64,000 bases of DNA, from positions 87,483 to 151,482 of the forward strand of contig NW_020312020.1 of NCBI RefSeq assembly GCF_003144115.1. The letters are read 5' to 3'. A model generated the notes under the pieces. It was not told the origin of the DNA. It searched no databases and worked only from the letters and a program-made list of their open reading frames with translations. The DNA is from Tilletiopsis washingtonensis. Its lineage: Eukaryota; Basidiomycota; Exobasidiomycetes; Entylomatales. Below, in pieces: positions 11,574 to 64,000 of the stretch. Position numbers and translations under genes: made by a program. The number at the start of each line of letters is the position of its first letter. The stretch's first letter is position 1.

Positions 11574-14500
11574 GTGTCGCCCGAGCGCGCCCCGTCGCCA
11601 GCGCGCGGCTGCGGGCCTGCCATGGCCTCGGGCCAGCCGCCGTCCGGCTCCGCACCTGGCGCAGCGCCATTGCGCCAGCACCCCACCTCCGGTGAGCGCC
11701 GCTCGCCGCAGCATGTGTCCGAAGGCAGCGGCAGCAGCGGCGGCAGCGGCGGAGGAAACACGCCGCTGCGAGCCTACGCCATCCCGGCGCGCTCGTCGCC
11801 GCTGCGGCACTCGCCGTCGGCTGTATCGCTAGAGAGCGCTGCGGCGGGCGCGCACGGCGGAAGTCTCAGCGACGCCGAGGACGAGCGCGAGGTCGAGGCG
11901 TCGGCGGCGCTGCGTCCGCGCCGCGAGCCGCCGCCGCTCTCGCCCTTCTCGCATGCCACGCCCTGGAGCGCCGACGAGCTGAGCGAGGAGCCTCGGCGCG
12001 GCACGCTGCGGCACAGCGCTTCGCCGGCCCGCGTCGCACATGCTACGCCGTCGGCTGCACAGCGTCACGCACTGCGCTCGCCGTCGCCCGTCACAACGCG
12101 CGCGCTCGAGGTCGACATGGCTGGCATGCATTTGAGCCGGCCACGCTCCTCCGACCCCGTCTCGCCAGACTCGCTGCACAGCTCGTCGCTGGGCGCGGGC
12201 AGCTTCGGCAACCTGCAGCCGCACGGCCTTGGCGTCGCTGCGGCGGGCCAGCCGTCCATCTCGTCCGACTCGTATCTATCAAAGATGCCGCGCGAAGACT
12301 CGGCCCTCTCAGAGGCAGACGGTGCGTGTCATATCTGGCTGACTGCGCCATCCCAGCCCGCTGCTGACAGCTGGTTCATTTCCGCAGGGCCTCCTTTGAC
12401 GATCAACCGGCGGCTGCAACGCAGCTCCTCCACTGCCGGCATCTTCGATCTCGACGATCCGCCAGTGCCGCAAGGGCCGCCTCAGCCCATGACAGTGCCT
12501 CGGATCCGCCAGCAGTCATCCTTCAGCGACCCGTTCACCTCGCGTGCCGACGAGCCGCTGCTCTCCCCGCGCAGCACGCGCTCGGGCTTCAGCCATGCGC
12601 AGGGGCCTGTCTCGCCGACGCCTGTGCCGTCCAGCTCGCCCGAGGCGGTGCGGCGAGCTGCGCGGCTGAGCCTCGGGCCTGCTGCGATGTCCACGTCGTC
12701 CGGCGGCGCGCTTAGCGTCCCGATCCCATCCGCGTCGGGCGCCATCAGTCCCGTCGGCGGCAAGCCGGGCAGAGCGCCATTCGACAATGCGCCGTCCTTC
12801 TCCAGCCCTCTGGCGTATGCGTCGACGCTGCCGCAGGAGCAGGCCGACGATCTCGAGCTCGACCCGCCTGTCTCGCCGCCAGAGAGCTTCGACAGTGCTC
12901 GTGCACACAGCGAGCGTTTCCAGGGCAGCGGCAGCAGTGTCCGCTCGACGTCGCCGAGTGCGCCGCGTCGCGAGCGTTCCAGCTCGGCGCGCGCCAAGCT
13001 CATGGCGTGGGGCGAGGGCCACACGCCGCAGTCGCTGCCTCGGTCGGTAGGCGGGCCGTCAAGAGCAGCTGTGCCTGGCTTTGACTCGGTCTCGGGCGAC
13101 GCCGGCACTTCGCCCGAGAGCACAACGTCGTCTGCGCCGAGCTCCGTCTCCAAGGCGGCGCGGCGGAAGAGCGCGCTTCCGCCCGGCTCGGTCATGGGCC
13201 CGCCTTTGATCATCCCGCGGAAGGTCAGCACGCCGCTGCGCATCCCGACGGAAGCCGAGCTTTCTGCTTCCTCGTCGCTGCCACGCGAGCGAGGAACGAT
13301 GTCGGCCCGTATTGCGCGCGACGGCAGCGATGACAACCTGCTCGGCCTGGGTCTGCCGTCTCCGTCCGGCTCTGTCTCCACCACATCGAGCGGAGCTCCT
13401 GGCTCGTCTGCGTTCTCGCCGCCCGTCGCCTGGGAAGGTCGGCCGCATCTGCAGACTGGCGAAGGCAGCCGCCCGCCGGTGAGCGCGAGCGGCAGCCTTG
13501 CCAAGCGACGGCGGTCCTCGGCCGCCGGATCGTCGGCCAGCCGCGCGCATCGTCGTGCGCGGTCGCTCGGTGGTGCGCTTCTGGGCGACGCGGCCGCAGC
13601 AGTGGGTGGGCCTGATGGTGTTGATCCGAATCTCGTAGCTGCCATCCGTGCGGGCGACTCGAGCATCCCAGGCACGCCCATGTCGACGCAGCAAGATCTC
13701 GTTGCCGCCATGCAGGCAGCAGCCATCACCTCGTCGCCGACGCTGCACAGCTCGACACTCGCACCGCCACAGGTGCAGTCAGGCGGACCGACATCGCCGC
13801 GCATCGCCTCGCTGCCATCGACACCCATTGGGTCCTTGCGGCAGCCCGGTCGGCGGCCAGACATGCTCAACGTGATGCCAGACACGCGTGCTCTGGCGAA
13901 CAGCTATCCCTCGATGCAAATACCGGGCAGCTCTCTGCGCAGCGCTGCCTCACACGGCAGCGGCACCGAGGCCTCACCTGGCTCAGAAGAGTCTGCGCGC
14001 GCCTCGCCAGCGACTTCAGCGGCAACGCCAGGCAGCGCGCCTGGCGCAGCTCAGCTGGTGACGCCCACGCACGCTCCTCTCGGCGCGCCCGACGGCTATG
14101 TGCGATCGCGTGTCCGCAGCCAAACACTTGCTGCCGCGACCTCGCCCGTGCCTGGCTCGGCGTCGTCCTTCAGCTCCTCCATCGGCGCTGGCGGTGGCAG
14201 CAACCTCGGTCTGCCGCTCGGCGAGGCGATCCGGCTCCAGCGCATGCCGACATCCGTGCGCCTGGCGACCGACTTCTACGTGCCGCCGCACTCGCCGTCT
14301 TCGACGCGGGCTGACTCGAACCGCATGTCCATGTCCTTGGCGTCTCTGCCGTCTTCGGCCACGACGCCTTCGACGAGCGGCGAGGCTGGCCGACATGGAT
14401 TGGGCATCGGCATGAGCAGCGCGGCGACGGGCGGTGACACGCGCCTCCACGCGCCGCACACGCCCAGTGCGACGCGCAGCAACAGCCCGATTCCGGCTGC

Positions 14501-17500
14501 GAACATTGCGTTGCCGCTCTCGACGGCTACGTCCGGCCGAAACTCTCCGGTGGCCAGCCGTCGCTCGCACACGCTCGTCTCGATCTCGGGCACGTCAAAC
14601 ACCAGCCCTACCTCGCCGATCTCAGGCTCGCGGCCCGGTCGGCCAGCCTCGCCTGCCGCGCCAAACGCATCGCCTGCCACGACCTCCTCGGCCCTCGAGC
14701 CCCGCTCAGCCGCGACTGGCTCTGCGTTCGCGCCGCTTCTTGCGATGCCGCCCAGTCCTCAAGTCAGCCGCAAGCCTCTCGCGCGCACAGATCGAGGCAA
14801 GGCGCGGGACCTGTACGATGTGCCAGACCTTGGACGACCATTCGGTGCGTACACGCGCTCGGCAGATAACCAGCAGCTACTGATGCCTTCTTCGCACGCA
14901 GATCCCACTGCACACCCTGCGCCGTGGATCTCGAGTTCGCAAGAAGTGCGCCAGCGGCCTCCGAAGAGCCTGTCGCCTGTCATTCCTAGACGGCCTGGCT
15001 CTTCGCAAGGCGCCGATGGCGCGACCAGCAGCAGCCAGACGATGGCCGTTCGCGGCCGGGCATCGTTCGCGCTGCCCTCTGGCGACGGCCGAATGATGCC
15101 GACTCGCGGACAGCCGACGACTGGCATCGACGAGTACGCTCGGATCATCGTGCAGTCGCGCAATGCGAAGATGCAGAAGTGGCGCGCCCCCTCGCGCAAC
15201 CCGCTCTCGCCTCCGCCTTCAAGTGCCGGCGCGCGCACGCCGCTACAGCGCGCGCAGACGGACACTGCGGGCCTGACCCTTGCCGACGCGCAGGCAGGGC
15301 TCGGCATTGCCGGCTCGAGCAGCCCGCCCATGCGCCTGCTCCGCCGCGAGACCACACTCGGACTCCTGGGCCCGCAAGGCTTCATGAGAGCTCGGCATGC
15401 GTCCGGCAGCCGAGGCACATCTCCTGCTCCATCGCCTCTCAGCTCGCCAGTGCCCGACAGCGACGATCTGCCCGACGACAGCGCTGTCGCGGGCGAAGGA
15501 TCGCGCGAGATCGAGTGGGTCGACTGGCTGGACGAGTACCGCCGGATGAAGGAGGCCAAGCTTCGCTCGGAGCAGGAGGAGGCAGCTGACTCGCCGAAGC
15601 TCCGGAGCGTCGAGCCGATTGAGTCCGCGACGGCGTCAAGCGACATCGACGAGCTCGATGCGCCGCAGCGCCGCTCGGAGGACATCCTCAATCGCTCCGC
15701 TCGCAGCGGCCTGTCCGCTGCGCTGGGCATCACTGAGGCTCGCTCTCCTGGCCTCTCTACCTCGCTCGGCACCGACCTGCGCCAATATGAGCGGCCGCGC
15801 CGGCCATCAGAAGCGCCGCGCTACCAGCGACAGCGCTACGAGGTCGCGCGGAGCTCCTCGTCGTCGCAGCTCGGCCAAGGGCTCGACGAGTATGCGCCCT
15901 TTGCCAGCAGCAGCTACGCGCCGCCCATCCGGCGCACGAGCCTGTTCCCTGACAAGCCGCGCAATCTCTCGCTCTCGCCCATCACGTCTCGCATCACGAG
16001 CACCGGCTCGCAGCAGTCGCAGGCGAGCGCCTCTGGCCGCCGGCGGAAGAATTTGGGCGGCAAGATCGAGGCCTGGTGGGGCGCCGTCAAGTCTGGCTTT
16101 GGTGGATCACCAGCCTCGATGTCGTCGCCGCGATCCAGCGCGGGCTTTGAGGGCCAGCGCAGCGGCTCGCTCCGGCGGCCCAGTGCGTCAGTCGCCGCTG
16201 GCTTCGCAGCCGGCACGGCCGCCGGCTTCAATTCGCACGTCCGCAGTCAGACTAACAACCACCAGTCGGTGGCGCCCTCGTCGAACTCAATTCACACCCT
16301 TCGAGCCACCTCGTCGGCGCAGAACCTCAAGCAGGCGCCTCTGCCCGGCAAGCGTGTGTCTGGCAACACGAGTCGCGCCGCAAGCCGGTCGTCTTCGGTC
16401 TCTGGCCATGCAGACGACAGCGCAGAGCTTGGCAGCAAGCGGAAGGGCCCAAAGCTCTCGCTCAACATCGACAAGGGCCTCAGCTCGTTCGACGCTGGTG
16501 CGTTTGAGGGTCTCGCTGGCAGCAGCGCTCGTGACAGCGGGCCCTCGGCGAGCTCGTCTGGGCCTGCGTCGGGCCAGCAAGTCGACAGCCGGCGTCCATC
16601 GGATCGCTCATTCAGTAGTGACGTGCCCACCTCGCCGAAAGACACGCGTCGCCTGTCCGACGCATGGGAGCAGCGGCGAGGCTCGGACACGGCCGCTGCA
16701 AGCGACGGGGCCGCCAGACGCGCTGTCGACGGCACGGTGCAGCAGCGCACACACGGCAGCCAATCCGAGCGGTCCGATTCTGGCAAAGGGCCCGGCCATT
16801 CCGGCATGCAGGCCTCGAGCAAGGAGACCACCATCAACTCCATCCGGCAGCACATCCGGCATCGTCTGGCAGCGTCGAAGGAGAGCTGCGACAAGGAGCT
16901 GCGACGCATCGTGCAGGCGGTCAACTCCTTCGTGGAGGAGGCGATGCAAGCCCGCCAGGAGCAGCAGCAGCTCGAGAGCGGCACGGACACGGAGCCGGAG
17001 GACAGCGCGCTCTTCGGCGTCAACGCAGACAGCCTCGCACTGGGCCTGAGCGCCAGCATGACGACGGAGCCGAACAGCCGCGGGCCACAGCTCGCCCAGA
17101 TCTCGCGCGACAGCAGCGTGCACTCCATGCTCGGCAGCTCGGCCTCGTCTGCGCTGCAGAGCGAGCAGTCTGACAGCTTTGATCCTGATCAGACGCCGCA
17201 GGGTGAGTCGTTGCGCTCTGAGCATCGCGAGTCTCCTCAACTGACCGCAATCTCTTGACCAGCTGCGCTCGAGCCGCTGGAGGCACCTACACCGCGCCGC
17301 CCATCAGCCCTGGCTGACACCACTTCGACGCTCGGCGAGTATAAGCTGTCGCCTCCACCAGCTCGTGCGGCCGCTGGTCCTGTGAGCGGCGGCCCGTCGC
17401 CGTCTTGCGGCGAGCTGCTCGCCGGCACTCCGTCGGCGCCTCCGCGCGTGCTGCCGTACCGTGCCATCTCGCGGGCGCGCTCACGCGAGATGATGCGCTC

Positions 17501-20500
17501 CGTCTCGGGCTCCCGCTCGACGTCGCGCTCGCACTCGCCCATGCCCGGCGGCACCGGCATGACGGACTCGCCGCAGTTCTCGCCCGCCAGACGCACGCGA
17601 CCGCTGCCCACCGAGGACGCGCCGTTCGAACCGTGGATTCCAGCGCTGCAGGACATCGTCTGCGTGGCGATGGACGTCATCGACACCTCCATCTCCGCGC
17701 TCGCTGCCCGCTCGGGCGCGTGCTCAGAGGTGATCAGCCACGTGCAGACCATCGGCCGCGCCTGGGACGAGCAGCCCGAGTGGCCTGGACGCGGGTGGTA
17801 CGTGCGCCTCCTGCTGGCGGTCGCCGGCCTCAGCAGAGTCGTGGAGTGGTGGGAGGCCGAGAAGGGCTTCTGGAATTTCGAGGACGAGGATGAGCTGCAG
17901 GGCGGCGAGGCGATCCGCTTCATCATGGGCGACCACGAGCAGCACGTTGCCCAGCCCGGCTCGGGCAGCCTGGCGGCCTCGACGGGCATGCCGAGTCCGG
18001 TGCGCGCACGCGGCTTGCCGCTGCCGCCGTCGGCGCTCAGCAGTGGCACCAGCTCGCCTGCTCTGGAGCCGCAAGGCAGCAGGCGCGTGGTCTCGGAGGG
18101 TGACCGCTCTCGCCTCGTCGCGGTGCAGGCTGCAGAGGCTGCGGAGGCGGATGCAGCAGGGTCCAAGCTCGCGCCAGTCGAGGAGTCACAAGCACAGCCC
18201 AGCAAGTCGACACAGGAGGGCATCAACGTGCTCATGGAGCTGAGCCTCGACGGCGAGCGCTTGCTGTACCTCAGTCCGGCTTGGCGCACGGTCGTGGGGT
18301 GAGTCAAGCAGGACCGCTTTCTTCCTCCCACAGCTGGACTCACACTCTCATGCCTTGCAGCACGGATCCGAACGAGCTCTTCGACCGGCCCATTGCCGAC
18401 TTCCTCGCGCCGGGCGACGCATCCACCTTCGCAGAAGCGATGGAGCAGCTGCAGGCGAACGATGCGCACACCGTCGAGGTGGCCTTCCGCCTGCAGGTCG
18501 ACCGCTCCGTCGTCGCCGACGCCGATGTCGAGTCTGAAGAGCAGGACGAGGCCGGCGACGCAGTGCTCTACTTCCAAGAGATGGAGGGCAAGGGCATGCT
18601 CATGCGCGACCGCCAGTCTGGCGCTGCGTCGCACGTCATGTGGGTCTTCAAGCCCACGAGCACGCCCGAGCCCGAGGCGGAGCTGCTGCCGGGACAGCAG
18701 CGCGTCGCAGCCGATGCCGGCGAGCCGCCAGTCGTGGCAGGCCCTGTCGCCGCAATCTCCACCGAAGCTCTGCTCTGCCGCATCTGCGAGCGCGACGTGC
18801 CGGCCTGGTTCTTCGAGAAGCACTCAGAGATCTGCAACGAAGTGCACCGCCTCGAGATGGAGATTGGCGAGTGCAACGAGACGCTGGCCGAGCTGCGCCG
18901 CGTGGTCAAGGGTCTCGATCGCAGCGTCGAAGGACTGGACGAGGCGGCCGACACAGACGCACCCGAGTACAGAGGCGTCGCGCTGACCACGCCGCCGCCC
19001 TCTTCTGAGCCGCCGTCCGCTCTCGAGGCCGTCAACCGCTCCATCTCGCCCCGCCACCCGCACGCCGCGAACGTGCGCAAGCAGCATCTCCGCGCCCTCG
19101 AGGCCTTCGCCGAGGTGCTCAAGGTGGCAATCTCCATCTCGACGCCGGCTGTCAAGGAGGACACAGCGGAGCAGCCCATCGAGCGCCAGCGTCTCTTGTC
19201 CCCCGACTCGGAAGGCAAGGTTGTCCAGGTGCGCGCGTGGAAGCGTCCCGTCATCGAAGACGCTGCACTCGAGATGCTGGCGGGCGACATCGAGTCGGCG
19301 ACGCGCAGCAAGCTCAGCGCGGTGAACCGCATGCTCAACACCATCATCTACGTCGAGACGGTGCGCCAAGAGTGGGAGGCGCGCGTCGAGGCCGCCCTTG
19401 CCGCCGCCAGCTCCTCTGGTGGCTCGACTGGCTCGCCCGAGGAGGACGTCGAGGAGCTAGAGGAGCTTGCCGATGACGACGCCGGCGAGATGGAGGAGCG
19501 CGGCGATCTGTCCACCGCCATGGAGCTGTCTGAGCCAGAGGAGGGCGACACGTCCGGCATTCTTCTGGAGCCCGACGAGCGCGAGCCTCTCCCTCCCTCA
19601 GTCGCGCCATCGGCGACTGGGCGGGGCGATGGTGTCGAGGACGAGGACGACATTCCCGGCGTCGAGAGCCACATGGGCGGCTCCGCTGCCGCCGATCTGT
19701 CGCCCATCCCGATCCCGCGCGCGCCGGCGCCCCGGCCTGTGGGCGCACCCGACGCTGCGAGCAGCAAGGAGATGCGCCGCGCCGGCTCGGGGAGCAAGGA
19801 AGCGGTGCCGCCGGCCAGCAGCCTCTCGGCCGCGGCTCCCGTCTCGTCCATCCAGGCGCGCCGCGCATCCCTGCTGGCGGCGTCTACCGACCGCTCGCTC
19901 CTGTCCACTCCGCCGCTCTCGCCGCGCCAGCCACCGGAGCTGAGCACGAGCGCCCTCAAGAGCCGCCGCGTGTCCGTCTCGCACCGCCACAGCCCTCACC
20001 TCAGCGGCTCCCTGACGCTCTCGCCGCGCCTGCCGCCCATGGCGCCCTCGTCGCGGCCGACGGCCTCGTCGATCAAGGACTTTGACATCATCAAGCCGAT
20101 CAGCAAGGGTGCCTTCGGCTCCGTGTTCCTCGCCAAGAAGCGCACGACGGGCGACTACTACGCCATCAAGGTGCTCAAGAAGTCGGACATGATCGCGAAG
20201 AACCAGATCACCAACGTCAAGGCCGAACGCATGATCCTCATGACGCAGACGCAGTCGCCCTTCGTCGTCAAGCTCTTCTTCACCTTCCAGAGCGCCGAGT
20301 ACCTCTACCTCGTCATGGAGTACCTGCCCGGCGGCGACTGTGCCTCGCTCTGCAAGGCGCTCGGCGGCCTGCCCGAGGACTGGGCGCGGCAGTTCGTCGC
20401 CGAGGTCGTCGTTGGCCTCGAGCAGCTTCACGAGAAGGGCGTCGTGCATCGCGACATGAAGCCTGACAACCTGCTCATCGACCAGAAGGGCCACATCAAG

Positions 20501-22827
20501 CTCACGGACTTCGGTCTGTCGAAGTACGGACTGCTCGGGCGCCAGACGCGCCAGCACGCCGGCGCATCCGGCCAGCGACAGAGCGTGCAGGGCGAGAACA
20601 AGTCCGAGGCTGGTCCCACAGGCTCAACCGCTGGCTCGCCCGCGCCCAGCTCTGCCGGCTCACTGGGAACGCCCATGAGTCGCGCTGGCTCGCAGGGCAA
20701 CGCTTCCTCGACGTGGCGCGACTCGTCCGCCGTCGGCGTGCCCGTGACACCAGGCCTCGCCGGCGTGATGCAGGCGCAGACGTTCTACACTGGCCCACAG
20801 CGCGGCCGCCTCGTAAGCTCCTCGACAGACGCCAGCGAGTCAAGCAGCTCCGAGCACGCCCTGTCGGTCTCCGCCTCGACGTCGGCGCCAGGCGGCGGCA
20901 AGCAGAAGCTCGTGCCTGTGCCTGCGACTGCGTTGCTCGACAGCCCCGGCCAGCTGTTCGGCTCGAGCGTCCTTGCCGACGCCGCCGCTGCGCCGCATGC
21001 GCCCTCGAACTCGGGCGCCCAGCTCAAGAAGTTCGTGGGCACGCCCGACTATCTGGCGCCGGAGAGCATCCTCGGCATTGGCATGGACGACATGGCCGTC
21101 GACTGGTGGGCCCTCGGCGTGATCCTGTACGAGTTCCTCTACGGCTATCCGCCGTTCCACGCCGACGCGCCCGAGAAGGTCTTTGACAACATCCTCTCGC
21201 GCAACATCGACTGGGAGGAGGGCGCGATGGACATCTCGCCCGAGGCGCGCGACCTCATGGAGTGCCTCATGTGCACCGACCCAAAGACGCGCCTCGGCAC
21301 GCAAGGCGCCGACGAGATCAAGCAGCATCCCTTCTTCGAGGGCATCGACTGGAACAACGTGGCCGACGGCGAGGGTCCGTTCGTTCCGCAGGTTACCGAC
21401 CCCGAGTCGACCGACTACTTCGACCTGCGCGGCGCCGTGCACCAGGAGTTCGCCAACGACTCGCAGGTCTCGTCGCGCAGCGAGTTCGCCAAGGCCATCG
21501 AGGGCTCCAAGCGCCACCGCATCGATATGAGCCGTCCTGCATCGCGGCTGCGCAACCGCCTCGCCGAGCGCATCAAGCACGAGCAGCAGGCGACCGACGA
21601 GTTTGGCTCGTTCAGCTACAAGAACCTGCCGGTGCTCAAGCAGGCCAACGACGAGGTCATCCGCAAGATGCGCAACGACCAGATGCCGCCGCTCGCGCAC
21701 ACGCTCGAGCAGCCGCTAATTCATGCGCGCCATCGTAGCCTCTCAGGCAAGGCCGGCGGGCGTGGCGGCGGTAGCAGCGGGCGTCTCTCCGGAGTTCCTG
21801 GCGGACCGCCGTCGCCCTCGACATCGGTCTCCTCGCAGAGCTCCGTGCCCTCTCGGTCGACGGCACCAACGTCGCCGTCCGGAGTGGGAGGCGTGGGCAG
21901 CAGCAGCAGAGCGCACCACAAGCGCATGCCTTCGGAACTGCCGGGCACTGTGGCGCCGTCAACCCCTCCCGTCGCGCCGTCGGCTGCCAGCGCCGCAAGC
22001 ATGGAGCGCCGCCGCTCGCACCTGGCGGAGAGCAGCGATGCAGGGGTAATGCGGCGTAGCTCCATGCCGGTGCGTCTGCGGACCACATCGCTGAGCAGTC
22101 CGGATCGTCCTGGGCTGCCGAGCAACTGGAGAGAGGCGCGCCGCCAGGCCGAGCTCGCCGTCGAGCCGTCAGGCCTCGGTAGCAGCGTCGACACCCTGCC
22201 GCATCAGCCGCCGTCCACGTCGACGTCTGCCGTGCCGGAGCAAGTGCACTGCCTCATCGCCGAGGACAACCCGATCTCCATGCGCATGCTCGAGACGATC
22301 CTCGCTAAGCTCGGCTGCCAGTGCACCTCGGTGCGCAACGGCGCAGAGGCCGTGCGCCTGGCCATGGGCGACACCAAGTACGCCGTGCTGTTCGTCGACG
22401 TGTCCCTTCCCATTGGTTAGTGTCTCTCGTGCTTCTGAAAGCGGCAGCAAGCTGACTTGACGCTCGCTCAGTCAACGGCCAGGACGTCGCGCGCATGGTC
22501 AAGTCGACGCGCAACGTCAACTCCCTCACGCCCATCGTCGCGCTGGCATCGTTCGACCGCGACTCGGGCCTCGACGCCTCGCGGAGTATCTTTGATGCCG
22601 TGCTCGCCAAGCCGCTCGAGCGCTCAGACGTCTGCGCCATCCTGCCGCGCCTCGGCTTCATCTCGCAGGCGCCGCCGCGCCGCTCGGCCGGCAGCCTGTC
22701 GGGCCCCTCGAGCGGCCAGGACGGCCCGCGGTCCGACGAGGCGGCGCCGAGCAGCGACACCGCAGCCGGCACGGAGCCAGCCTCGGCGCCCGTCGGTGAC
22801 TCTTCGCGGCGCGGCAGCAGAGACTGA
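11574..22827 (+). CDS. RIM15: Rim15/Greatwall-family kinase with PAS and receiver domains
   Basis: Six exons: 11574-12321, 12388-14844, 14902-17202, 17263-18298, 18361-22415 and 22472-22827, giving 3650 aa. The first ~1750 residues are disordered Ser/Pro-rich sequence with many SP/TP sites. A helical segment (SIRQHIRHRL...) and a conserved region precede a PAS domain (about 2155-2280). A zinc finger follows with C-x2-C and H-x4-C (about 2318-2340). The AGC-type kinase starts near 2755 (GAFGSVF, then HRDMKPDN, DFG and GTPDYLAPES). A ~170-residue insert separates DFG from the GTPDYLAPES segment, the split typical of the Rim15/Cek1/Greatwall family. A receiver domain closes the protein (about 3476-3580; acidic AEDN, Asp in LFVDVSLP, Lys in LAKPLE). 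Family role: nutrient-controlled entry into quiescence through endosulfine phosphorylation. Met at 11622 is an alternative start. It is about twice the length of yeast Rim15. Confidence 0.88.
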
Positions 22828-23015: not shown

Positions 23016-26000
23016 TCACCACGTGCGAGCGTGCGTCGGGCAGGCCTTGCCGCGGCTGAACCACGAGTCGATGCACGCGCGGTGGAAGTAGCAGAGGCAG
23101 GGCTGAGGGCGCAGCGTGTAAGCGGCAGCAGAGCGAAGGTGGGCGCAGAGGTGCGACGTACCAGACGGGCGATGATCATGCCGGGCAGCAGGTCCTCGAG
23201 GCAGATTACGCACTCCTTGCCGACGATGGGTCCCGTATCCGGCAGCTTGTAGACCAGGTAGCGTCCGCCCTGCAGCGATCCTCCGCCGCCCGTCTCGAGA
23301 CACGCCTGCAAAGAGCGGCTGTGAGCATGCAGCTTCGCAGCGCTCGGGCGAAAGCGAACTCACCCTGACATGCTCCTCCTGTGTGATCGAGTCGCCAAGC
23401 GTGGCCAGAGTGGTGCTGCAGACTGGGCACTCATTGAGCTCGCTGGCGCGGGAGCTGACGTCGCTCATCGACGACGGCAAGTCGCTCTCGGTGTGGCTGC
23501 TCGGCAGCTGCGACAGCAACGAGCGCACGGCGGTGCCGGGCGGCAGCTGCCGGTCCGCATTGCAGGCGTTGCAGATGCGTGTCGGGCCACTGCTCTCTGT
23601 GATGAGCATTTCTGGCATGGCCGGGTCGATGACGAGCTCCGCAGCGGAGAGGTGCACGCGATGCGACGAGCACCGATCGCATCGGATCTGGCCGCAGCGG
23701 CGGCAGTGGTGCTTGCGCACGAAGAAGGTGAAGCGCCGCTGGCAGTCTGGGCACTCCGACGCAGTGTCGTCGCTCTGCCATGTCGGCACGAGGTTCTGCT
23801 CGCGCAGCGTCGCGGCGCCGACGGGCTGCGAGAAGCGGTTCGGCACCTCATGCGTCGGCACACGGAACTCGCTCGCGGCTGCCAGATCCGCGCTGCGCAT
23901 GGCTGCAAAGCTGACGCCGGCCTCTGAAGGGGCTGCCGCGCCAAAGGCAGACGCGCTGCTGCCGACGCGGACGGGCGGGCCGGGACGCACAGCAGCGCTC
24001 GAGGTCTGGTTGAGCCCGATGCGCGTGATGACCGACTGGCCGTCATCCTTGTAGGAGTTGGGGTAGATGAACTCCTCTGCGTCGCTGTCCTCGTCCTCGC
24101 TGCCCTCCTCCTCGATGCCGATGGCCTGGCGCAGCTGGCCGAGCTGCAGCGTGTACTCTTTCAGCATGTCCTCGGCGCGGCTTTGCCGATCCGAATCAGC
24201 ATCGCTGAATGCAGAGCCACGCAGCTCGCTGATCGCCAGATCAAGGCGCGCTATGCGGCGCCGCAGCTCGTCTGCTCCTTCGCCCATGGCGTCTGCGGGC
24301 GTCGAGCCAGAGGCAGCGCCGAGGCCAGCTAACGCGCGAGCGCGAGCGACGTAGTCGGCGGACGGGCCGAGAGAGGCGGCTGCTTCTCGGGCCTCTTGTT
24401 CGGCAGCGACAACGCTCGAAGGCTTGAGGCTTGCGCCGGGTTCAGCGTAGGCCGCACTAGAGTACTGTGCAATCTCGGCAGCCTCGAGCTCGTCGCCAAA
24501 GTCGATGTCGAGGCGCCGCCGGATCACACGGACCCAGCGGCGCCGCCGCACCCAGCCGGTAGGCACAGCCTCTTGCTCGCCGCCAACGCCGTTGACCGAC
24601 GTCTGGCCGGGACCAGGCAGCGCTCCGCCAGTGATGGCACGCGTGACACTCGAGCCTAGCCCGCGGCCTTCCAGGAGACGGGCGAGCGGCGGCGGCACTG
24701 CAGCGCTCCAGCGCTCGTCGGGCGCGTCGAAGGACTGGGCGTATTGCCAGCCGTCGTGGGCGTCGACGAGCGGGTGCGTCAGGTCCGGCTGCCAGTCTGA
24801 CAGCCAGAAGTGGCATCGCTCTCCGTTCGGCATCTCGCGCTCCAGCGAGGAGGATCCCGAGGCGCGCCGGTCGAGCACGCTCTGAGGCGTAGGGGTGCTG
24901 CCGAGCTCGCTCTCGCCGAGACCTTGCGCGGCATGCCTGCGGGCGTTCGCGGCCGCGATCTGGGCGGCCCGAGTCGGAAGCACGAGCTTGTACGGGTTCT
25001 CGCGAAGCGGCAGGCCGACGTCTTCGCGGCGCATGGGCGCATTGCGCGTGCGGCTGGTCGACAGCGGGCCAGGCGGCATCGTGCCGGGAGCCCGTCTGTC
25101 TGGCTTGTGCGGCCGTCCGGCGCTTGTGCCGCTCCAGCGCGGCTTGCCGCCGTGCACGGCGAGCGTAGAAAGTCGCATGTCGAGACGCTGGTTCTCGTGC
25201 AGAATGACGGGCACTGTCGAGTGCAGCCGCAGCGGGTTGTACGCCTGCTGGATGGCGCTTGCGCGAGTCTGCCGGGCGTCGCCGGAGCCGGTGGCGTGCG
25301 AGAGGCGCAGCGCGGCCCAGCGTTCGGCCTCGTACTTCTCGAGCACCTCGCAGACGTACGTCTCGAACGTCGCAGCGGCAATGTCGTACGCAGTCTCGCC
25401 GGCAGTGTTGCGTGCAAAGGGATCGGCCTGCGACTTGGTGCAGAGATAGCGCACGACGGTGACGTGGCCGCCGGCAGCTGCGTTCATAAGCGGCGTCCAC
25501 TCGCCGCGCCCTCCCTTGGCATCAACAATCGCTTCGGCGTTCTCGCACAGCACGCGCACGATGTCGAGGTAGCCACGCGCACAGGCATTGTGCAGCGGCG
25601 TCCAGCCATCGAAGTCGACGGCGTTCGCCGATGCTCCGCGCGACAGGAGGAAGGTGAGAGCAGGCAGGCGGCCGGCGAGAGCCGCTTTGTGCAGCGCAGT
25701 CTGTGCACGCGTGTGAGCAATGCTGGCACGCAGCAAACGGACACTCAGCTGCGACTCACCTCGCCCTCTTTGTCCTCGAGCTCCACCAAAGCACCAGCCT
25801 CCTCAATCAGCCACCTGACGATGTCTGCCTTGCCCTCTCGCGCGGCGTAATGTAGCGGAACAAGGCCGGAGTTGGGCCCTGGCTCATTCGCGAGCACGAA
25901 GCTGGAGTGCCCATCGGCAGAGGCCTGGGCGAAGAACGCCTCAAGCGCCGAGAGCGGCCCAGTCGTCGAGAGCGATGCGAGCGTAGCGTGGTCCAGCGGC

Positions 26001-39249: not shown

Positions 39250-40560
39250 CTAGCGGTAGAACTCGGCGCGCTTGGCGTTGATGCCGTACTCGCCCAGCGC
39301 CGCCGAGAGGTCGTCCATGGTGAGTACGGTGCGCGCCCGCTCCTTTGCGCCCGCCGCGCCGGCACGCTGTCGCCCTGGGCCGGCGTTGGTGCGGATGCGC
39401 GCGTACTGGAAGGCGTCCGTGGCGATGTCGGAGACGAACTTCTCGGCTGCAAGCGAGAGCAGTCGCTTGCTGTAGGTGCAGAGGATAAGCTTGTGTGCAG
39501 AGCAGCAGGCTGTATCGCGGCTGCTCACACGCGCTGGTCATCGCACTCGAAGCCGACCTTGGCCAGGTAGTACTCCGTCACCTCGTCCGGGATCTGGCGC
39601 AGCCAACGTGAGCACGACTGTAGCTCTTGAGCATCGGCTCATCACTCACCAGCGGGTCGTAGCCATCCAGCATGCCCAGGAATTCGCCAAGGGTGCGGTC
39701 CTTGCGCTTCTCCTCCTCCTCCCTCCGGCTCAGCGGTTGCCGCTGCTCGGCAGCGTCGGCAGCCGAGCCCGAGGCGCCCGCATGTGTCGGCGTCGTGTTG
39801 CCATCGACGTCCATCGGTGCCGCGGCGGCCGGACCGAGACCGCGCCGCGAAATGTAGCGCGAGAGATCCTCCGAGGTCGCGACACACATGACGAAGGAGC
39901 GCGAGGCGTCCGTCACGAAGGCGAACGGCTGCTCAGCCAGGAAGGCTGCACGGCGAGCGTTAGAAGAACGCATCTGAGGAGCACTATGGAGCGAGAAGGG
40001 TTCACGGCATGCGCTTGACCTCCTATCCTCCGCCCCCTGTCGAGCTCTCTCTCTCTCTGCCTTCTGAAACCCACACGCCTGCGCGCGAATGATCGCTTCG
40101 TCGCGTCACAGCGGCCGATCTCCCGGCGCATCGCCTCAAGCGGGCACCGCTTCACAGCAGACTCACCCTCCAGCTCGGCGAGGCCCGTCTCGGGCGTGAT
40201 GACGACGAAGCCGGCGCCTTGCGCGCCGCCGCCGAAGCGCGTCATGGCGCGCTCGACGGGCGCCGCATCCTGCACGCTGCCCTGCGCCACGGCCTGCTGC
40301 ACGGCGCGCACGTCGAGGTAGCCGCGCGGCGCGCGCCCGGCCATGACGGGCAGCTGCGAGTAGTCGTGGTCGTGGGCGATGCGCAGCGCGGCGGCGACGC
40401 TCGTGCTCGTGCTCACGCACACGGCCGGCGGCAGCTGCAGGTCCTCGACGACGGCGCCGCGGAAGCGCAGCGACGCCGCGGCGGGCGCGGCGGGCGGCGA
40501 GACGACATTGGCGGGGCGCGGCGCAGGGATGGAGCCCTTGATGGGGCCGGGCGTCGACAT
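39250..40560 (-). CDS. TAF10: CBS-domain protein fused in frame to TAF10
   Basis: Four exons on the minus strand, 40560-40167, 39945-39650, 39593-39529 and 39469-39250, give 324 aa. Residues about 20-168 form a CBS pair: [26 protein letters not shown] and DVRAVQQAV in the first half, then [17 protein letters not shown] and [11 protein letters not shown] in the second. After a ~40-residue Ala/Ser-rich linker comes a full TAF10 histone fold (about 211-324): [49 protein letters not shown] and the terminal [19 protein letters not shown]10 is a shared TFIID/SAGA subunit. The CBS and TAF10 parts lie in one uninterrupted exon, so the join does not depend on a splice guess. An internal Met (39814) could start a free TAF10. 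The CBS part has no stop of its own. The first intron is 221 nt with a TTCTAAC branch motif. Confidence 0.8.
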
Positions 40561-41291
40561 GGTGGGGGAGTGTGGCGGAGGTGGGGAGCGGAGGTGCGGA
40601 GTCACAGCGAGGTCATGCTCGGTCGCGCCTCGGCCAGCTGGCCAAGCTCGTGCTCGCCGGCACGTGCCGCACCCGCCCGAGTCGCCTCGCTTCTGCAGGC
40701 CGCGGCGCCGCGCGCGAGGCCAAGGCAGCGCTGGCGAGCGCGTCCGCCTTGCTTCCCGTACTCATCACGCGGGCTTATTGTAGGCCCTGCCTGCCCACCC
40801 ACAGGCCTGGTTCCTCTATCCGCTACGCAAGAGCGAGCGGCGGCGCATCTGCAGGCTACGCCTGCGGGGCGCTGCTGCCGACGGCTGCCGGGGCGTCCGT
40901 GCCTCGCCTCTGTGCGCCGCACGCCCGTCCCGGCACAGCCTACCGGCCCGTCTCACATCTGCTCAGGCACGTACTGCGTGTCTCCTCTCTGCCAATGCCA
41001 TGCATGCATTTGCTGCTTGTCTGCGTGCTGTGTGTGCCGTGTGTGTGAGAGGCGCAGGAGGCACAGCTGGGCTGCGCATGAGGTAAGCAGGCCTCGCTCG
41101 GCGCGGCTCCGCCTCCACACGCTGCGGGGCGCTGCTGCTTCCTTCTCCCCAACCACACCACCGCCGTTTCCTCAACCACTGCATCAGCGTCACCTTCGCG
41201 CGCTCTCCAATCGCCAGCTGCGTCTGCAGCGGCCTCGCTCGTGCAAGCCGTCGCATCTCCGCTCGCGCACCCGCGCGCGCGTGCCGCCAGC
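40561..41291. other. divergent promoter region, CBS-TAF10 and SDH assembly factor
   Basis: The two genes point away from each other across 731 bases. No TATA element is evident on either side, and no open frame looks like protein. The CBS frame stays open upstream to an ATG at 40605, an alternative start adding 15 residues. Confidence 0.5.
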
Positions 41292-41795
41292 ATGCGGCCC
41301 AGCCTCGTGCTCTTCAAGCGCTACACGCAGTCGCAGAAGGACGTCATGGCCCTCTACCGCCGCGGCCTGCGTGCTATCCGGAGCAAACCAGAGGTGAGCA
41401 TGCAGCAGCGGGTGTCGGACATGGGCAGGGTGGATCTGGGCCGGCGTGGACCTGCGACGGGCCAGCACCGGCAGTCGTCATGGTCGGACCGCCTGAAGAA
41501 GCCCGCTCTCCGAGGGCTGCTCCGGGCTTGAAAGTCTTGCTAGCATGTGCTATATTATCAGTGCTGACCGCTGCTATGCCAGGCAACGCGCCCCAACTTC
41601 CACGCCTATCTGCGCCACGCCTTCCGGCATCCATCCATGGGCGGCGGCGTGCGAGCGCGCGACTTCTCGGCCATCGACTACCTCATGCGTCGCGGCACTC
41701 GCATGATGGAGGATGTGTTTGAGAGCCGTGGCGTCAAGGACATTGGCTTGCCGGCCGGCGCCGATACGTACACGGGCCGGATACGTCGCGAGTAG
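41292..41795 (+). CDS. SDH6: LYR-motif succinate dehydrogenase assembly factor 1
   Basis: Two exons, 41292-41393 and 41583-41795, give a small basic protein of 104 aa. It contains ALYRRGLRAIRSKP, the LYR signature followed by the helix typical of SDHAF1/Sdh6, then an FRHP-containing loop and a helix with IDYLMRRGTRMME, which matches the family's conserved YLLRRG segment. Family role: a mitochondrial matrix chaperone that protects the Fe-S subunit of complex II during assembly and bridges it to the co-chaperone system. The length is close to the known factors. Other small LYR proteins are possible, but the second conserved helix favours SDHAF1. The intron ends with CTGAC followed by CCAG. Confidence 0.78.
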
Positions 41796-55174: not shown

Positions 55175-58100
55175 ATGCGCAGTCCTACTCTTCTCCTGGG
55201 CCTCCTGCCCCTGCTCGCCCTCTTCTGCCTCATCCAAGATGTCTCGGCCACCGGCGCCCTGATCCCGCGCGACCTCGATGACTCGGCCGACGCCCAGAAC
55301 TTCCTCGAGGCTCGCTCCCGCCGCTGCACGTCGTCGAAGAAGTGTGGCCGCAACAGCTACTGCTCGTGGGGCCGCTGCCGCCGCAAGAAGTGGGACGGCG
55401 ACCGCTGCCTCGCCTTTGCGAGCTGCTTCAGCGGCTCGTGCGATGTCCAGGTGAGCTCGGCGGCTCGGCATCGATGACTTCATGCTCACGCCTCCCTCCA
55501 GGCCGGCCGCTGCGCGTCGCAGAACCTCAGCCTCGGCACGCGCTGCTCGACGTCCGCCTCGTGCGGCTCGGGCAACTGCCAGAATGCCTACTGTGCGCCG
55601 AAGAAACGCATCGGACAGTACTGCTACAAGTCGTCGAACTGCCGTACTGGCTTCTGCGCGAATTCTCGCTGCACGCGCGTGCCGCAGACGGAGCAGCCCG
55701 ACCTGCAGCCGAGTCTGCCGTGGAACCGCGACCTGCGCGACCTCTCCAACCTCGACGCCTCGCCCGGTCTCGAGCTCTTCTACCTCCAGTCCGGCGCTCT
55801 CGACCCGTCCGTCAGCCAGATCTTCGCCACGCTCAAGGCCGACCTCAGCTTCCCGGCTGTCGTGCTGTCGCACTCGAGCCGCGTCGGCGTGCCCAAGTGC
55901 GAGGCGGCGTCGGTCAGCAAGACCGGCGGCGCCGGCATCGAGGTGCCCTTCTCCGACGCCGCCGCCTACACGTACGCCAAGAACTCGTGGAGCAAGCTCG
56001 CTGACAAGTTCCTCATCGTGACGCACAGCGACGGCTGCGGTGCCGCCGACAAGGCGGACGAGCGCACCTTCTGGCTCGTCGAGAAGAACGGCCTCGTCTG
56101 GGACGACGTCGCTCGCACCGTCGACGTCCGCTGCACCGAGGTCGCGCACCAGGACGTGATCAATGAGGTCAACATCAAGTTCGGCGGCTCGACTCCCGCC
56201 AACGGCGGCACCACGCCGGGCACGACGCCTGGTGGCACTACGCCCGGCACCACACCCGGCGGCACGACGCCTGGCACCTCGCCGGGTGGTACCTCGCCCG
56301 GTACTACGCCCGGCACCACCACGCCTGGCACGACTCCTGGCACCACGACGCCTGGCACGACCCCTGGCACCACGACGCCTGGCACGACCCCTGGTACTAC
56401 GACGCCTGGCACCACTCCTGGCACCACGACGCCCGGCACGACGCCCGGCACGACGCCCGGCACGACGCCCGGAACCACGACCCCTGGCGAGGCCACCTGC
56501 CAGGACGTCGACGCCTCGACGACCGTGCGCGGCCTGCCCGTCGCCGCGTGCGGTGCCGACTTCGACAAGACGCTCGACAGCCGTCTGGGCTTCAACAACC
56601 TGCGCAATGAGGACAGCTTCGCCGAGTACGCCTCGGAGCTGGCGCCGGGCCTCGGCTCGCTGAGCCCGGATGACTACGACGAGGCCGACGACGACTTCAA
56701 GGACGACACGACGTACACCAACAGCAAGCGCCAGCAGCTGCGCCGTGCCCAGCTCATGTCCGCGCGCGGCGAGCTCATGATGTACGACAAGCGCTTCATC
56801 TCGATGGGCAAGGGTAAGTGGACGACGGCACGAGGCTGCAGCTCGCGGTGCTCACCACCGCTTCTCCATAGTCTTCAGAAAGCTCGGATCTGCCATTGTC
56901 ACCGTCGTCACGGCTCCGGCACGGGTGTTCGTCCAGGGCGTCGTCACCGCCATCGGCGCGACTCCGGTATGTAGCGATGCGACACAGCCGCCCAGCCGCA
57001 GGGACTGATACAGATCCTTGCCTTAGCTCGGCCCGATCATCGACAAGGCGCTGGAGAGCGCTTCGCCGAAGATCGACAAGACGCTCAACCTCTCGCTCAA
57101 GCCGACGAAGGGCCTCCAGCCTTCGAAGACGTGGGGCAACCAGTTCCGCATTTTCCACGAGAAGTTCGACCGCAACGGCGCCAAGGGCGAGGTGGCCCTC
57201 TTCTGTGTAGAGTCAGCAGCTTCCCTCGCAGGCGTGCTTGAGGCCCATCCGCTGACCGTCTCCCTCTTCGCAGCTGCGGCATCGAGGGCTCGGCGCAGCT
57301 CACCGGCCAGCTGCAGTTCTCTATCCGTGAGTCCGACGGGCGGTGCGACGTAGAGGCCTCTGCTCACACCGCCGACGCGCAGAGAATGGAGGCTCGATCA
57401 AGCAGGCGTTCGTACAGGTCGCCGGCGGCATCAAGGCAACGGCCGTGCTCGGCCTCGAGGCGGAGGGCACGTACGAGAAGACCTGTGCGTTGCTCGAATG
57501 CCTAAAGCAAAGCGACGTGCGCTGACTGTCTGCCCTTTCAGCCAAGACGAACATCATGACGGTGCCCCTGGGCGGCTTCGCCATCAAGGATTACGTCGTC
57601 GTCGGCCCGTCCATGTCGCTCGACGCGCAATTCAAGTTCGAGGCGGCCGCGTCGGGATCCCTCAAGGTTGGCGCAACCTATGGCATGGATGCCTTCAAGG
57701 CGCGGCTTGATTTCCTCGCGGAGAGCGCCTGGTCGGCCGAGGGCTTCACGCCCAAGTTCGAGAAGGTATTCGAGGTGAAGACGGAGATCAAGGCCGAGGC
57801 GCTGCTGTCGCTGCCCATTTCCATCGGCGTCGGCGTAAAGATCAAGCCGGTCAACTTCGACAAGAAGGTGGCGATCAGCACAGAGCCCGGCATCGGCGCC
57901 GAGGCCAAGTACTTCTACGACAAGGAGGCTCCGGCCGAGACGGAGTGCAACGGCGGCGTTGCTTACGAGATTTCGCTGCGCAACGAGGTCGCCATGGATC
58001 TCTTCGGCACGCGCAAGCCGCTCGGCGAGCCGTGGAAGCACAAGCTCGCAGGCGACTGCTTCATGCTGCCCGGCGCGCCCGTCAAGGACACGCCGACGGA

Positions 58101-59073
58101 CGGCACCACGCCGACCGACGGCACCACGCCGACCGACGGCACCACGCCGACCGATGGCACCACGCCGACCGATGGCACCACGCCGACCGATGGCACCACG
58201 CCGACCGATGGCACCACGCCCACCGACGGCACCACGCCCACGGACGGCAGCGCTCCGACCGACGGCAGCGCTCCGTTCGATGGCAGCGCTCCCACGGACG
58301 GCAGCGCTCCGACCGACGGTGACGAGGTCGAGCAGCTGCAGGGCCGCAGCGTGCAGCTCCTGGCCAGCGACGTCATGAAGCGCGACGAGCGGGCACTGCT
58401 GGCGCGCGAGATCGACCTCACCGACTCGGACTTCGACTTTGCCAACGACGACCTGCTGCCCGAGGCCCAGAAGGAGCTGCAAGAGGACATCGACGAGAGC
58501 ATCGCGGCCGCCGAGAACGCCGGCTCGCAGGACGGCTTCGAGTACATCCAGATCCAGGACTCGCTGAACCGCTACAAGCTCGCCAACAACGAGGACGGCA
58601 GCCTCACGCTCGTCGAGAAGACGGCGGAGACGGGCGGCCTCTACTTTGCCGCCGTCAACAACATCGTGCTCACCGACGACGCCGAGAACCTCTTCATCTA
58701 CTACCCCGCCACGATGGCCGAGCTGGGCGTCAGCCGTCTGCGCATGGTCGACCCGACTTCGGTGCCCAAGACGGCCGACATGCTCGGCTGGGTGCCCATC
58801 AACGCCGACGAGTCGACGGGCACGCCGGGCATCTACGTGCCGCGCTCGGTCTCGGCCGCGAGCGAGTCGGGGAAGGAGGGCGAGGTCTTCTTCACGATGC
58901 TCTGCAACTTCAAGGACGGCTCGGCGAGCAAGCTCTTCCTCGCCAAGAACGCCGAGACGGCCGAGGCGACGCTCAAGAGCCAGGACGCGCTGCAGACCGT
59001 CGCCGGCAACGTCATCAGCGCCTGCCAGTTCCTCCCGCTCGTGCCCATGAGCGGCGGCTTCGCCGGCTTCTGA
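55175..59073 (+). CDS. secreted Cys-module protein with two tandem-repeat domains
   Basis: Seven exons: 55175-55450, 55502-56813, 56872-56966, 57027-57211, 57274-57326, 57383-57484 and 57542-59073, giving 1184 aa. A signal peptide (about 1-25) and a dibasic RSRR site (47-50) are followed by four 4-Cys modules of the form C-x5-C-x4/5-C-x4/6-C (C51 to about 160). A globular part follows, then a Thr-Pro-Gly repeat (about 328-421). A second large domain follows with CVDCG (621-625) and beta-rich segments. Thirteen TPTDGT-like hexapeptides (858-935) and a C-terminal domain close it. There is no GPI-type tail. The exon-4 donor is a weak GTCAGC at 57212; it alone keeps frame and yields CVDCG. I do not recognise the family; a wall-associated or secreted surface protein is inferred from signal peptide, Cys modules and Pro/Thr repeats. 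Confidence 0.8.
56208..56487 (+). repeat. coding minisatellite, Thr-Pro-Gly repeats
   Basis: Tandem in-frame units encode variants of TTPGTTPG, near residues 328-421 of the secreted protein. Units vary at synonymous positions (ACC/ACG/ACT, GGC/GGT) and in period (4-, 5- and 9-residue spacing), so the array is old enough to have diverged. Confidence 0.85.
58090..58323 (+). repeat. coding minisatellite, 13 x 18 bp (TPTDGT)
   Basis: Thirteen 18-base units encode eight TPTDGT, then TPTDGS, APTDGS, APFDGS, APTDGS and APTDGD. The central units (4-7) are identical in DNA and carry GAT for Asp, whereas flanking units use GAC, a sign of recent unit duplication in the middle of the array. Confidence 0.9.
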
Positions 59074-59635: not shown

Positions 59636-61328
<1,693 letters not shown>

Positions 61329-61700
61329 GTGGGGGAAGAGAGAGGCGGCGAGAGCAATCTGATTACGAGGTTTGCCAGATGCGCAGTCTCTAGGCTTGCT
61401 GCTGTGGGGTATACAAGGGAAGGAAGAGGCATGCGGGTCCGGGGCGCGCTGTGCAGGACGGCACTGCCAGTGGAACGAGGTCCGTCGAGCGAGACGGGCG
61501 GAGCTGCGGCGCCGAGGAAGGGAGTGCGAGCTGCACAGCGGCCTTGCAACGCCTGCTTGAACTGCGCCGCGCAGCTTGGTGCGTCGCATTCGTCGATCGC
61601 CGGAGCGAGTGCGGCGCATCCGAGCGAGAGGGCTAGCAGATGTGTAGACATGAGGCGCCATGTGGGGGCCCGTGGGGACGACGCAATTGGGGCGCGCGAA
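61329..61700. other. convergent 3' flanks
   Basis: This lies between the stops of Rpn11 (plus) and Sua5 (minus). No gene or exact AATAAA is visible. Confidence 0.45.
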
Positions 61701-63131
61701 CTAGGTGCGCACCTCGACCTGCTCGCCCGCTGCCTTGTTGAGGCGATTCATAACTGCCAGGCCCACGCCTTGCTCCTCGACGGCCTCGACGAGAATGACG
61801 TCGCAGTGCTTCGGCCCTTCAGAAGGCGCAACAGCGGCAGCGGATGACTCGGCGTCTGAAGAGCAAGGAGGGGCGCGCACATCGAGCTGATCCAACGTCC
61901 TCAGGCCGTCGAAGAGGCGCGCAGCTGCTTCGGCGGGCCGCGCGATGGAGCCCAGGTCGAAGCGATGCAGGGTGCAGTGTTGCGCTGCCGACAGCTCGAG
62001 GCGCGCTGGCGGCGCAAGCAATGTGCTCGTTGCGCTGCTGCTGCTGGCGTCGTCTTGTGGGCAGAGCTGGCGCAGAGACGCAGAGAGGGCGCCGTCTGAG
62101 GGAAGCATGAGGCCGACATGCGCGTCCGTCGAGCGCGACGCCAGGCTTTCGAGCAAGTCGCGCAGTGACGTCGCTGCGCCCGCCGTCGGCTTGAGCAGCA
62201 CGACTTTGGCATCGGGCGCGTAGTGGCGATACTTCATGCCCGGCGTGGTGGGGTTCTGCTCCATCTGCACATCTCGCAGCACCGCTCCCTCGGCCGCTTG
62301 ATCCGCCTGTCCATAGACGCGCAGCCTGGCCTGCACGCCCGCTGCGGCGAGGGCCGTGCGCAGATCATCCACCGTACAGGCGCCCGGGCGCAGGACGTGC
62401 ACTTCTCCCGGCACCGAGATGGCGTCGACGACGGTGCTTTCGACGCCGAGACTGGCTGCGCCGCCGTCGAGAATGAAGGGCAGGCGCCCTTGCTCGCCGC
62501 CCAGGTCGTGCGCCACATGCGCGGCCGTAGTGGGCGACGGCCGACCGGATGCATTTGCCGAGGGAGCGGCGAGCGGCACGCCTGCGGCGGCGATGAGGGC
62601 GCGCGCCACGGCATGCGCGGGCATGCGGATGCCCACGGTGCGATGTCCGGCGGTGACTTGGCGCGGAATGCCCGGGCCGGCGGGAAAGAGGAGCGTCAGC
62701 GGTGCGGGCCAGAGCTGTGCGAGGGCGTGCAGCGCCGGCGAGAGGCGGAAGTCTGGCGGCAGCAGCGGCGCCAGCATGTCGAGCGAGGCGATGTGCACGA
62801 TGAGCGGATTGTCCGCCGGGCGGCCCTTTGCGGCAAAGATGCTGTGCGCCGCATGCGCACTCAGCGCGCTGCCGCCCAGCCCATACACCGTCTCTGTGGG
62901 GAAGGCGACGACGTGTCCTTCGCGCAGCGCGGCGGCGCACTGGGCGATGCCGTCGGCGGACGTGGCGCAGACGACGCGCGTGCGGAAGGTGCGCGAGGGA
63001 TAGGCGGCAGGCGCCGCTGCGCCGCACGACGACGACGAGGAAGCCATGCGGCACGAGCGTGGCGGCACGCAGGCGAGACGGCGCAGAGGAGCAGCAGAGA
63101 GCAGACGGACGGCGCTGTGGGGCATGCGCAT
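61701..63131 (-). CDS. SUA5: threonylcarbamoyl-AMP synthase Sua5
   Basis: A single uninterrupted frame gives 476 aa from the ATG at 63131. The YrdC/Sua5 domain covers about 55-270: ALREGHVVAFPTETVYGLGG, the KGRPADNPLIVHI loop, PGIPRQVTAGHRTVGIRMP and PLAAPSANASGRPSPTTA, then ESTVVD and VLRPGA. The C-terminal Sua5 domain begins after SPTTPGMKYRHYAP-type linker sequence (NPTTPGMKYRHYAP here), which closes over the active site. The enzyme makes threonylcarbamoyl-AMP from Thr, bicarbonate and ATP for t6A37 of ANN-decoding tRNAs. Residues 1-29 are Arg-rich without acids and resemble a mitochondrial presequence. Met at 63047 would give a cytosolic form of 448 aa; the frame also stays open to an ATG at 63233. 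It is the only long intronless gene here. Confidence 0.88.
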   Translation of the reverse strand: MRMPHSAVRLLSAAPLRRLACVPPRSCRMASSSSSCGAAAPAAYPSRTFRTRVVCATSADGIAQCAAALREGHVVAFPTETVYGLGGSALSAHAAHSIFAAKGRPADNPLIVHIASLDMLAPLLPPDFRLSPALHALAQLWPAPLTLLFPAGPGIPRQVTAGHRTVGIRMPAHAVARALIAAAGVPLAAPSANASGRPSPTTAAHVAHDLGGEQGRLPFILDGGAASLGVESTVVDAISVPGEVHVLRPGACTVDDLRTALAAAGVQARLRVYGQADQAAEGAVLRDVQMEQNPTTPGMKYRHYAPDAKVVLLKPTAGAATSLRDLLESLASRSTDAHVGLMLPSDGALSASLRQLCPQDDASSSSATSTLLAPPARLELSAAQHCTLHRFDLGSIARPAEAAARLFDGLRTLDQLDVRAPPCSSDAESSAAAVAPSEGPKHCDVILVEAVEEQGVGLAVMNRLNKAAGEQVEVRT

Positions 63132-63388
63132 GCGCAGTGTGCCTGCGCGTGCGGCGGTGGTGCGCGGCGCGTGAGGAGCGAAGAGGCGGCAAAGGAAGAC
63201 GTGGGTGAGGGCGAAGGTGAGGCAAAGGTCCAAATTTCCGCCTGGACAGCGAGGAGGCGGCGCCGGGTGGAGGCAGCGCGCGGCATGCTGAGTCAGCAGC
63301 GGCGCCGCCTGCTGAGGCAGCGATGCTGCTCCTGGCCGTGCCCCGCCCCTCTCCTCGGCCTCTCTCCCACCACCACGCCTGCACCAGC

Positions 63389-64000
63389 ATGGGCTTCTTC
63401 TCCTCCTCTCCCTCCTCCTCCTCCTCCTCCGCCCCCGTCGCCGGCGAGGGTGGTTCGCTGCCCACGCGTTCCTCGCGCACGGCCTGCTGGGACGCGCGCG
63501 ATGCCTACTACGCCTGTCTGACGCAGCGGCACGTCGTCATTCCGCCGGGCACCGACATGAGCGACGGGCGCGGGCCCGTGGGCAAGGCGGCCGCGCAGGC
63601 GCAGCGCCAGCGCGCAGAGTCGCTCGAGGAGCAGAGACTGGCGGATCCGTGTGCCAAGCTGCGCGGCCCGTATGAGGGCAACTGCGCAAAGAGCTGGGTG
63701 AGTGGCCCGGAGCAGCGCGGGCAACGCCGGGAGGAGGGCAAGCGCAAAGGAACGTCAGGTGGTCGCACGTGGGCTGATGAACCACGTGCGTCGGAAAGAA
63801 AGTGGGCGCAGCGGGCAGAGGTCAAGCTGCAACTCTGCACATCGGGCCGGCTGAAGGGGCAGCAGGGCCGGGCATTGGGCGCTCAAATGGGCGCGGCTAG
63901 ATGGGGCGGGGGGCGACTAGATTCACAGCAGAGATCCGCAGGTGCTGCGGGCTAGCAACGTCGTGGCGGGCATGCGTGTGCCGGGCCAATTGGGCCGGGG
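63389..64000 (+). CDS. COA6: COA6-like cytochrome c oxidase assembly factor, 3' end missing
   Basis: Exon 1 is 63389-63697 (103 codons, phase 0), ending at a GTGAGT donor. The following exon lies beyond the window, as no acceptor before 64000 gives the expected end. After a Ser-rich head, ACWDARDAYYACL supplies a C-x9-C pair, and CAKLRGPYEGNC supplies C-x10-C followed by AKSW, the spacing typical of COA6. Family role: an intermembrane-space twin-Cys protein helping copper delivery to Cox2. It diverges from Sua5 across about 257 bases. A longer relative of the twin-Cys family cannot be excluded without the end. Confidence 0.78.

Follow-up and report, generated by a model that had tools for sequence, protein, structure and literature searches.

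In a window of 64,000 nucleotides of Tilletiopsis washingtonensis DNA (contig NW_020312020.1), one gene on the reverse strand (39250..40560) appears to join a CBS module to TAF10, and at the level of the reading frame this joining is well supported. The likeliest explanation, to which we give a probability of roughly 0.6, is that two ordinarily separate genes, one for a small CBS-pair protein and one for TAF10, have fused, and that the locus mainly yields a TAF10 of about 34 kDa bearing the CBS module at its N-terminus. Second in order, and rather unlikely, is the production of both a long and a short protein from the same locus.

The gene runs from an ATG at 40560 to a stop codon that ends at 39250, and its four exons join into an open frame of 975 nt including the stop, encoding 324 amino acids (34.3 kDa). 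Exon 1 (40167..40560) encodes residues 1-131, that is, the N-terminal tail, the first CBS half, and the start of the second. Intron 1 (39946..40166; 221 nt) lies inside the CBS pair and carries a GTGAGT donor, a branch-like TTCTAAC, and a CAG acceptor. Exon 2 (39650..39945), which rests on the joined frame, the coding score, and a codon scan, completes the CBS pair (up to roughly residue 166) and continues through the linker into the first helix of TAF10. It is followed by intron 2 (39594..39649; 56 nt; GTGAGT...CAG), exon 3 with part of the TAF10 histone fold (39529..39593), intron 3 (39470..39528; 59 nt; GTGAGC...CAG), and exon 4 with the remaining fold and the stop (39250..39469); exons 3 and 4 are supported by the joined frame, the Pfam TAF10 match, and the alignment with PDB sequences. 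From its N-terminus, the 324-residue product thus comprises a CBS pair (about residues 28-163), 48 linker residues (167-214), and the TAF10 histone fold in full (218-323). The start ATG has an A at position -3, and another ATG, 56 nt upstream of it, opens a frame of 4 codons. When the product was searched against the window by tblastn, these exons were recovered and every other match had an E value of 1.1 or worse.

The profile search placed both CBS and TAF10 above their gathering scores, in agreement with the domain assignments of an earlier note on this DNA. Pfam CBS (PF00571) matched residues 38-87 with an E value of 1.1e-5 and 26.1 bits (cut-off 24). The second CBS half, searched alone against Pfam and NCBIfam, gave no match, and among PDB chains the CBS part had no relative below an E value of 0.2. 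Residues 28-163 as a whole matched positions 329-456 of the 457-position NCBIfam cystathionine beta-synthase profile, TIGR01137 (E 2.8e-9; 36.2 bits), and the first half alone reached 16.4 bits against the same profile. Since the longer segment scores about 20 bits above the first half, the second half adds support, and the prediction of a CBS pair is supported, its second half only in context.

Pfam TAF10 (PF03540) matched residues 218-323 along profile positions 2-102 of 102 (E 4.2e-38; 130 bits; cut-off 28). Five distinct PDB sequences (6tb4_J, 6t9i_G, 9ynu_G, 30ff_DJ, and 4wv4_A) were found at E values of 0.01 or below, all named TFIID subunit 10, with E values from 2.9e-31 to 1.2e-24, and identity to four aligned PDB segments was 51-57%. 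F220 and F263 of the fusion align with F119 and F162 at the TAF8 interface of human TAF10, so that both phenylalanines are kept; according to the available part of PMC4309443, F119 is the centre of the contact of the TAF10 N-helix with TAF8, and F162 lies where the second helices cross. By the account of the same source, human TAF10 116-218 fully complements TAF10-null mouse cells, and import of TAF10 relies on the signal of TAF8. As far as this source goes, the N-terminus of TAF10 can therefore vary, and an N-terminal addition should be tolerated and brought into the nucleus by the partners, because the fold suffices and is imported through the TAF8 signal. It also reports that human/yeast TAF10 chimeras are non-functional in mouse cells, which indicates that the fold itself is not freely exchangeable. 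TAF8/TAF10, TAF3/TAF10, and Spt7/TAF10 are described as pairs in the available text of PMC12969390, and we infer that the fold of the fusion still pairs with TAF3, TAF8, and SPT7.

Given that both domains are recognizable, the argument turns on the sequence between them. The earlier note had placed the end of the CBS pair and the start of TAF10 in one uninterrupted exon, at 39945-39650, and had put an internal ATG at 39814. Both coordinates are correct, and since the last part of the CBS pair, the linker, and the opening TAF10 helix all lie within the 296-nt exon 2, the join needs no splice. If intron 1 is right, the CBS pair spans it, which makes exon 2 part of the CBS gene, and the same exon runs on into TAF10. 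The shared frame holds no stop codon between the CBS pair and the TAF10 fold, and this lack of an in-frame stop to end the CBS protein ahead of the fold is the main argument for reading the locus as a single gene. A CBS transcript that is spliced to a stop ahead of TAF10 finds little footing in exon 2, where none of the nine GT positions forms a GTGAG or GTAAG donor.

The linker (39698..39841) was described in the earlier note as some 40 Ala/Ser-rich residues; by the boundaries used here its length is 48, with 13 Ala or Ser residues by visual count and a charged end (EEEEKRKD). Its openness alone is weak evidence, since in the non-coding DNA of the window a fixed frame likewise stays open for 48 codons from 22407 of 40448 positions (55%). 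Its coding character is the stronger point; the linker was scored with a codon model built without the fusion gene and compared with open non-coding windows of this stretch. The score was +7.4 bits in the shared frame, a value reached by 0.6% of the 2713 open non-coding windows, and it was negative in the two other forward frames (-44.3 and -32.9 bits) and on the opposite strand (-13.3, -36.3, and -11.0 bits). Per codon, the linker (0.154) scored below the first CBS half (0.478), the second CBS half (0.497), and TAF10 (0.523). Were TAF10 to start at the internal ATG (Met176), the greater part of the linker would be coding all the same, and residues 167-175 alone are unique to the join.

These data also bear on a sequencing or assembly error in the linker through which two separate genes would be misread as one, an explanation that we consider most improbable. 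None of the 25 codons from 165 to 189 is one substitution away from a stop codon, which rules out a stop hidden there by a single-substitution error. A frameshift is improbable as well, given that no frame of the linker but the shared one looks coding, and the join itself sits within a 296-nt exon. These results speak against the hidden stop that the earlier note had named as a danger to the fusion.

Splicing was considered as a further source of products. Across the window, 29 candidate introns of 47-372 nt were gathered from gaps of up to 400 nt, and intron 1, which belongs to this set, is the fourth longest. A CTRAY branch motif occurs in 22 of the 29, a figure that is not independent of the selection, since donor and branch motif had served to rank the candidates; the set does not include introns 2 and 3 of the gene. 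Retention of intron 1 gives a 215-residue protein whose frame is left inside the CBS pair, and retention of intron 3 gives a protein of 252 residues. If the 56-nt intron 2 stays in, the reading frame changes and a stop is reached 23 residues into the intron, yielding a 253-residue CBS product devoid of the TAF10 fold. A switch in which retained intron 2 specifies this CBS protein and removed intron 2 specifies the fusion, so that splicing separates the two functions, can accordingly be drawn up, but it is very unlikely, given the GTGAGT donor of intron 2 and its length, which is a common one in the window.

A more substantial alternative is that both the long CBS-TAF10 protein and a short TAF10 are made as a nested pair sharing one frame, the short one from Met176, ATG 39889, or ATG 39973 by means of a promoter lying within intron 1 or exon 2. 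Intron 1, at 221 nt, is long enough that it could hold a second transcription start, its rank among the candidate introns fits this view, and a start at Met176 (39812..39814) would yield a TAF10 of 149 residues. There is a precedent in several mushroom fungi, in which up to 8% of transcribed genes are reported in polycistronic transcripts and are also transcribed alone (PMC4503453, in its available part). However, the context of Met176 (gcaccgATGG) has a C at -3, along with a G at +4, and, once the transcript is spliced, Met176 is separated from the start codon by five other ATGs (at coding positions 52, 216, 292, 315, and 450 on a zero-based count), of which three are in frame. Scanning from the long transcript to Met176 is unlikely because these five ATGs intervene, and a separate transcript would be needed. 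Such a transcript is itself constrained: when it starts above 39889, it meets the in-frame ATG there, which is inside the CBS coding part, and carries a CBS fragment, so that a clean TAF10 needs a start at about 39888-39815, within CBS coding sequence. On this evidence the production of two proteins is doubtful, and of the free TAF10 that the earlier note had drawn from ATG 39814, the version made off the long transcript is disfavoured, leaving the version made from a transcript of its own.

The ATG at 39973 (reverse strand), within intron 1, shares the frame of exon 2 and opens a stretch of 202 residues that extends to the TAF10 stop; a transcript that starts in intron 1 and keeps this stretch would encode TAF10 together with part of the CBS pair. 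A (GA)n tract at 40045, also in intron 1, was tried as a mark of an internal promoter and rejected, as it is one of four GA/CT tracts in the window, which show no consistent position. A scan for bacterial promoters and terminators, whose scope does not extend to eukaryotes, returned nothing.

The fused protein thus remains the preferred main product. Its expression would proceed from a single promoter upstream of 40560, with removal of the three introns from the transcript and translation as one chain, in which a CBS pair, a flexible 48-residue tether, and the TAF10 histone fold follow one another. The CBS pair would then be carried on its tether, outside the fold, into SAGA and into TFIID, the latter with two copies. 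The presumed promoter region is the 731-bp gap (40561..41291) to a divergent gene of the LYR family, which starts with an ATG at 41292 (Complex1_LYR, E 1e-7, Pfam search with a hand-joined protein), and this region would serve both genes. Downstream of the fusion gene lies a convergent gene of the NEDD4/Bsd2 family.

The ligand motif of the CBS pair invites the question of sensing. T/S-x-x-D is the ribose-contact motif of CBS domains that bind adenosine ligands. The second CBS half contains it, with T155 and D158, and the first half seems to lack it, with D83 and A86 at the matching place. By way of conjecture, the pair may act through this one kept motif as a metabolite sensor, with an adenosine compound (ATP/AMP or an S-adenosyl compound) altering TFIID and SAGA. 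Taf10 is among six subunits present twice in TFIID, according to the available part of PMC6220335, and two CBS pairs could consequently join across the lobes of TFIID and couple them to metabolic state. We regard this as improbable. It is no less plausible that the CBS pair is a passenger that the protein tolerates, or that it serves dimerisation. As a passenger it would be made within the fusion, bind no ligand, and have no effect on TFIID or SAGA, which is compatible with the fused protein as main product. The apparent lack of the motif in the first CBS half speaks for a passenger, as does the placement of the fusion at the N-terminus, which human TAF10 can do without (PMC4309443, in its available part). 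On the other side, the CBS frame is open, its codon bias is strong (GC3 of exon 1, 0.97), and T155 and D158 are kept. A passenger is a serious contender, short of an even chance.

TAF10 belongs to both TFIID and SAGA, and a lineage with a CBS-bearing TAF10 would offer a naturally occurring test of direct metabolic input to the core transcription machinery. Fused proteins tend to be functional partners, and by this reasoning the fusion might place the small fungal CBS proteins in the neighbourhood of TFIID or SAGA.

Measured per 4 kb, the GC content of the window is 66-70%, against 44.95% for Golubevia in the available part of PMC7272565, and the sequence has the look of genes with introns; searches of the window for tRNAs and for Rfam families above the gathering score found none. 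A large frame at 18359-22414 (forward strand) contains a protein-kinase domain in two matched stretches and, at its end, a receiver-domain match that is weak and below the cut-off; we take it to resemble the Rim15-type kinases. It is preceded by an open frame of 1845 residues (11676-17210) that has no Pfam match at an E value of 0.001. Further features are a protein with RGS and DEP domains (7047-9263, forward), presumably a regulator of G-protein signalling, and a single frame with ankyrin repeats and a FYVE finger (23373-25679, reverse). A frame with a DUF7029 match (55490-56827, forward) looks cysteine-rich by eye, and in another frame (57541-59070, forward) a DUF7223 match falls below the cut-off. 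Within 59986-63682 lie a JAB-domain frame that presumably resembles Rpn11 (60565-61005, forward), Sua5 (62085-63008, reverse), and a COX6B-type frame (63383-63682, forward).

Among open-licence papers, no CBS-TAF10 fusion was found, which is weak evidence of novelty. In its available part, PMC1282579 treats TAF10 as a substrate of a SET-domain protein and CBS as SAM-binding, and does not link the two. A relation of the locus to telomerase RNA was considered and dropped; PMC12506658 describes, in its available part, a Ustilago maydis transcript that joins Emi1 and telomerase RNA and a similar one with NDK1 in Malassezia, and its main text as available contains TAF10 0 times. Contig collections of viruses, bacteria, and archaea, the results of which say nothing on fungi, were scanned with the fusion protein, giving 0 pattern matches in viral contigs and 33 in bacterial and archaeal genome contigs, 0 of them confirmed; a five-row TAF10 alignment gave 42 pattern matches in viral and 190 in genome contigs, again with 0 confirmed.

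The fusion can be set beside several known proteins. Its residues 28-163 match the C-terminal region of cystathionine beta-synthase, which holds the CBS pair of that enzyme, but it stays far below the TIGR01137 cut-off (510.25 bits) and has no catalytic domain. Small fungal CBS-pair proteins are stand-alone and little studied, and they end shortly after an SRRG-like motif; their pair is similar in size and has the SRRG-like end, whereas the pair of the fusion is joined to TAF10. In the gamma subunit of AMPK/Snf1, CBS pairs are sensors of adenylates with an effect that reaches transcription. That subunit acts through a kinase, outside TFIID and SAGA, whereas the CBS pair of the fusion sits on TAF10 itself. 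Finally, TAF10 is customarily a stand-alone subunit of about 200 residues, and in the four longer PDB chains (204-218 residues) the match starts after an N-terminal tail of 48-114 residues; in the 324-residue fusion, by contrast, the fold is preceded by a CBS pair.
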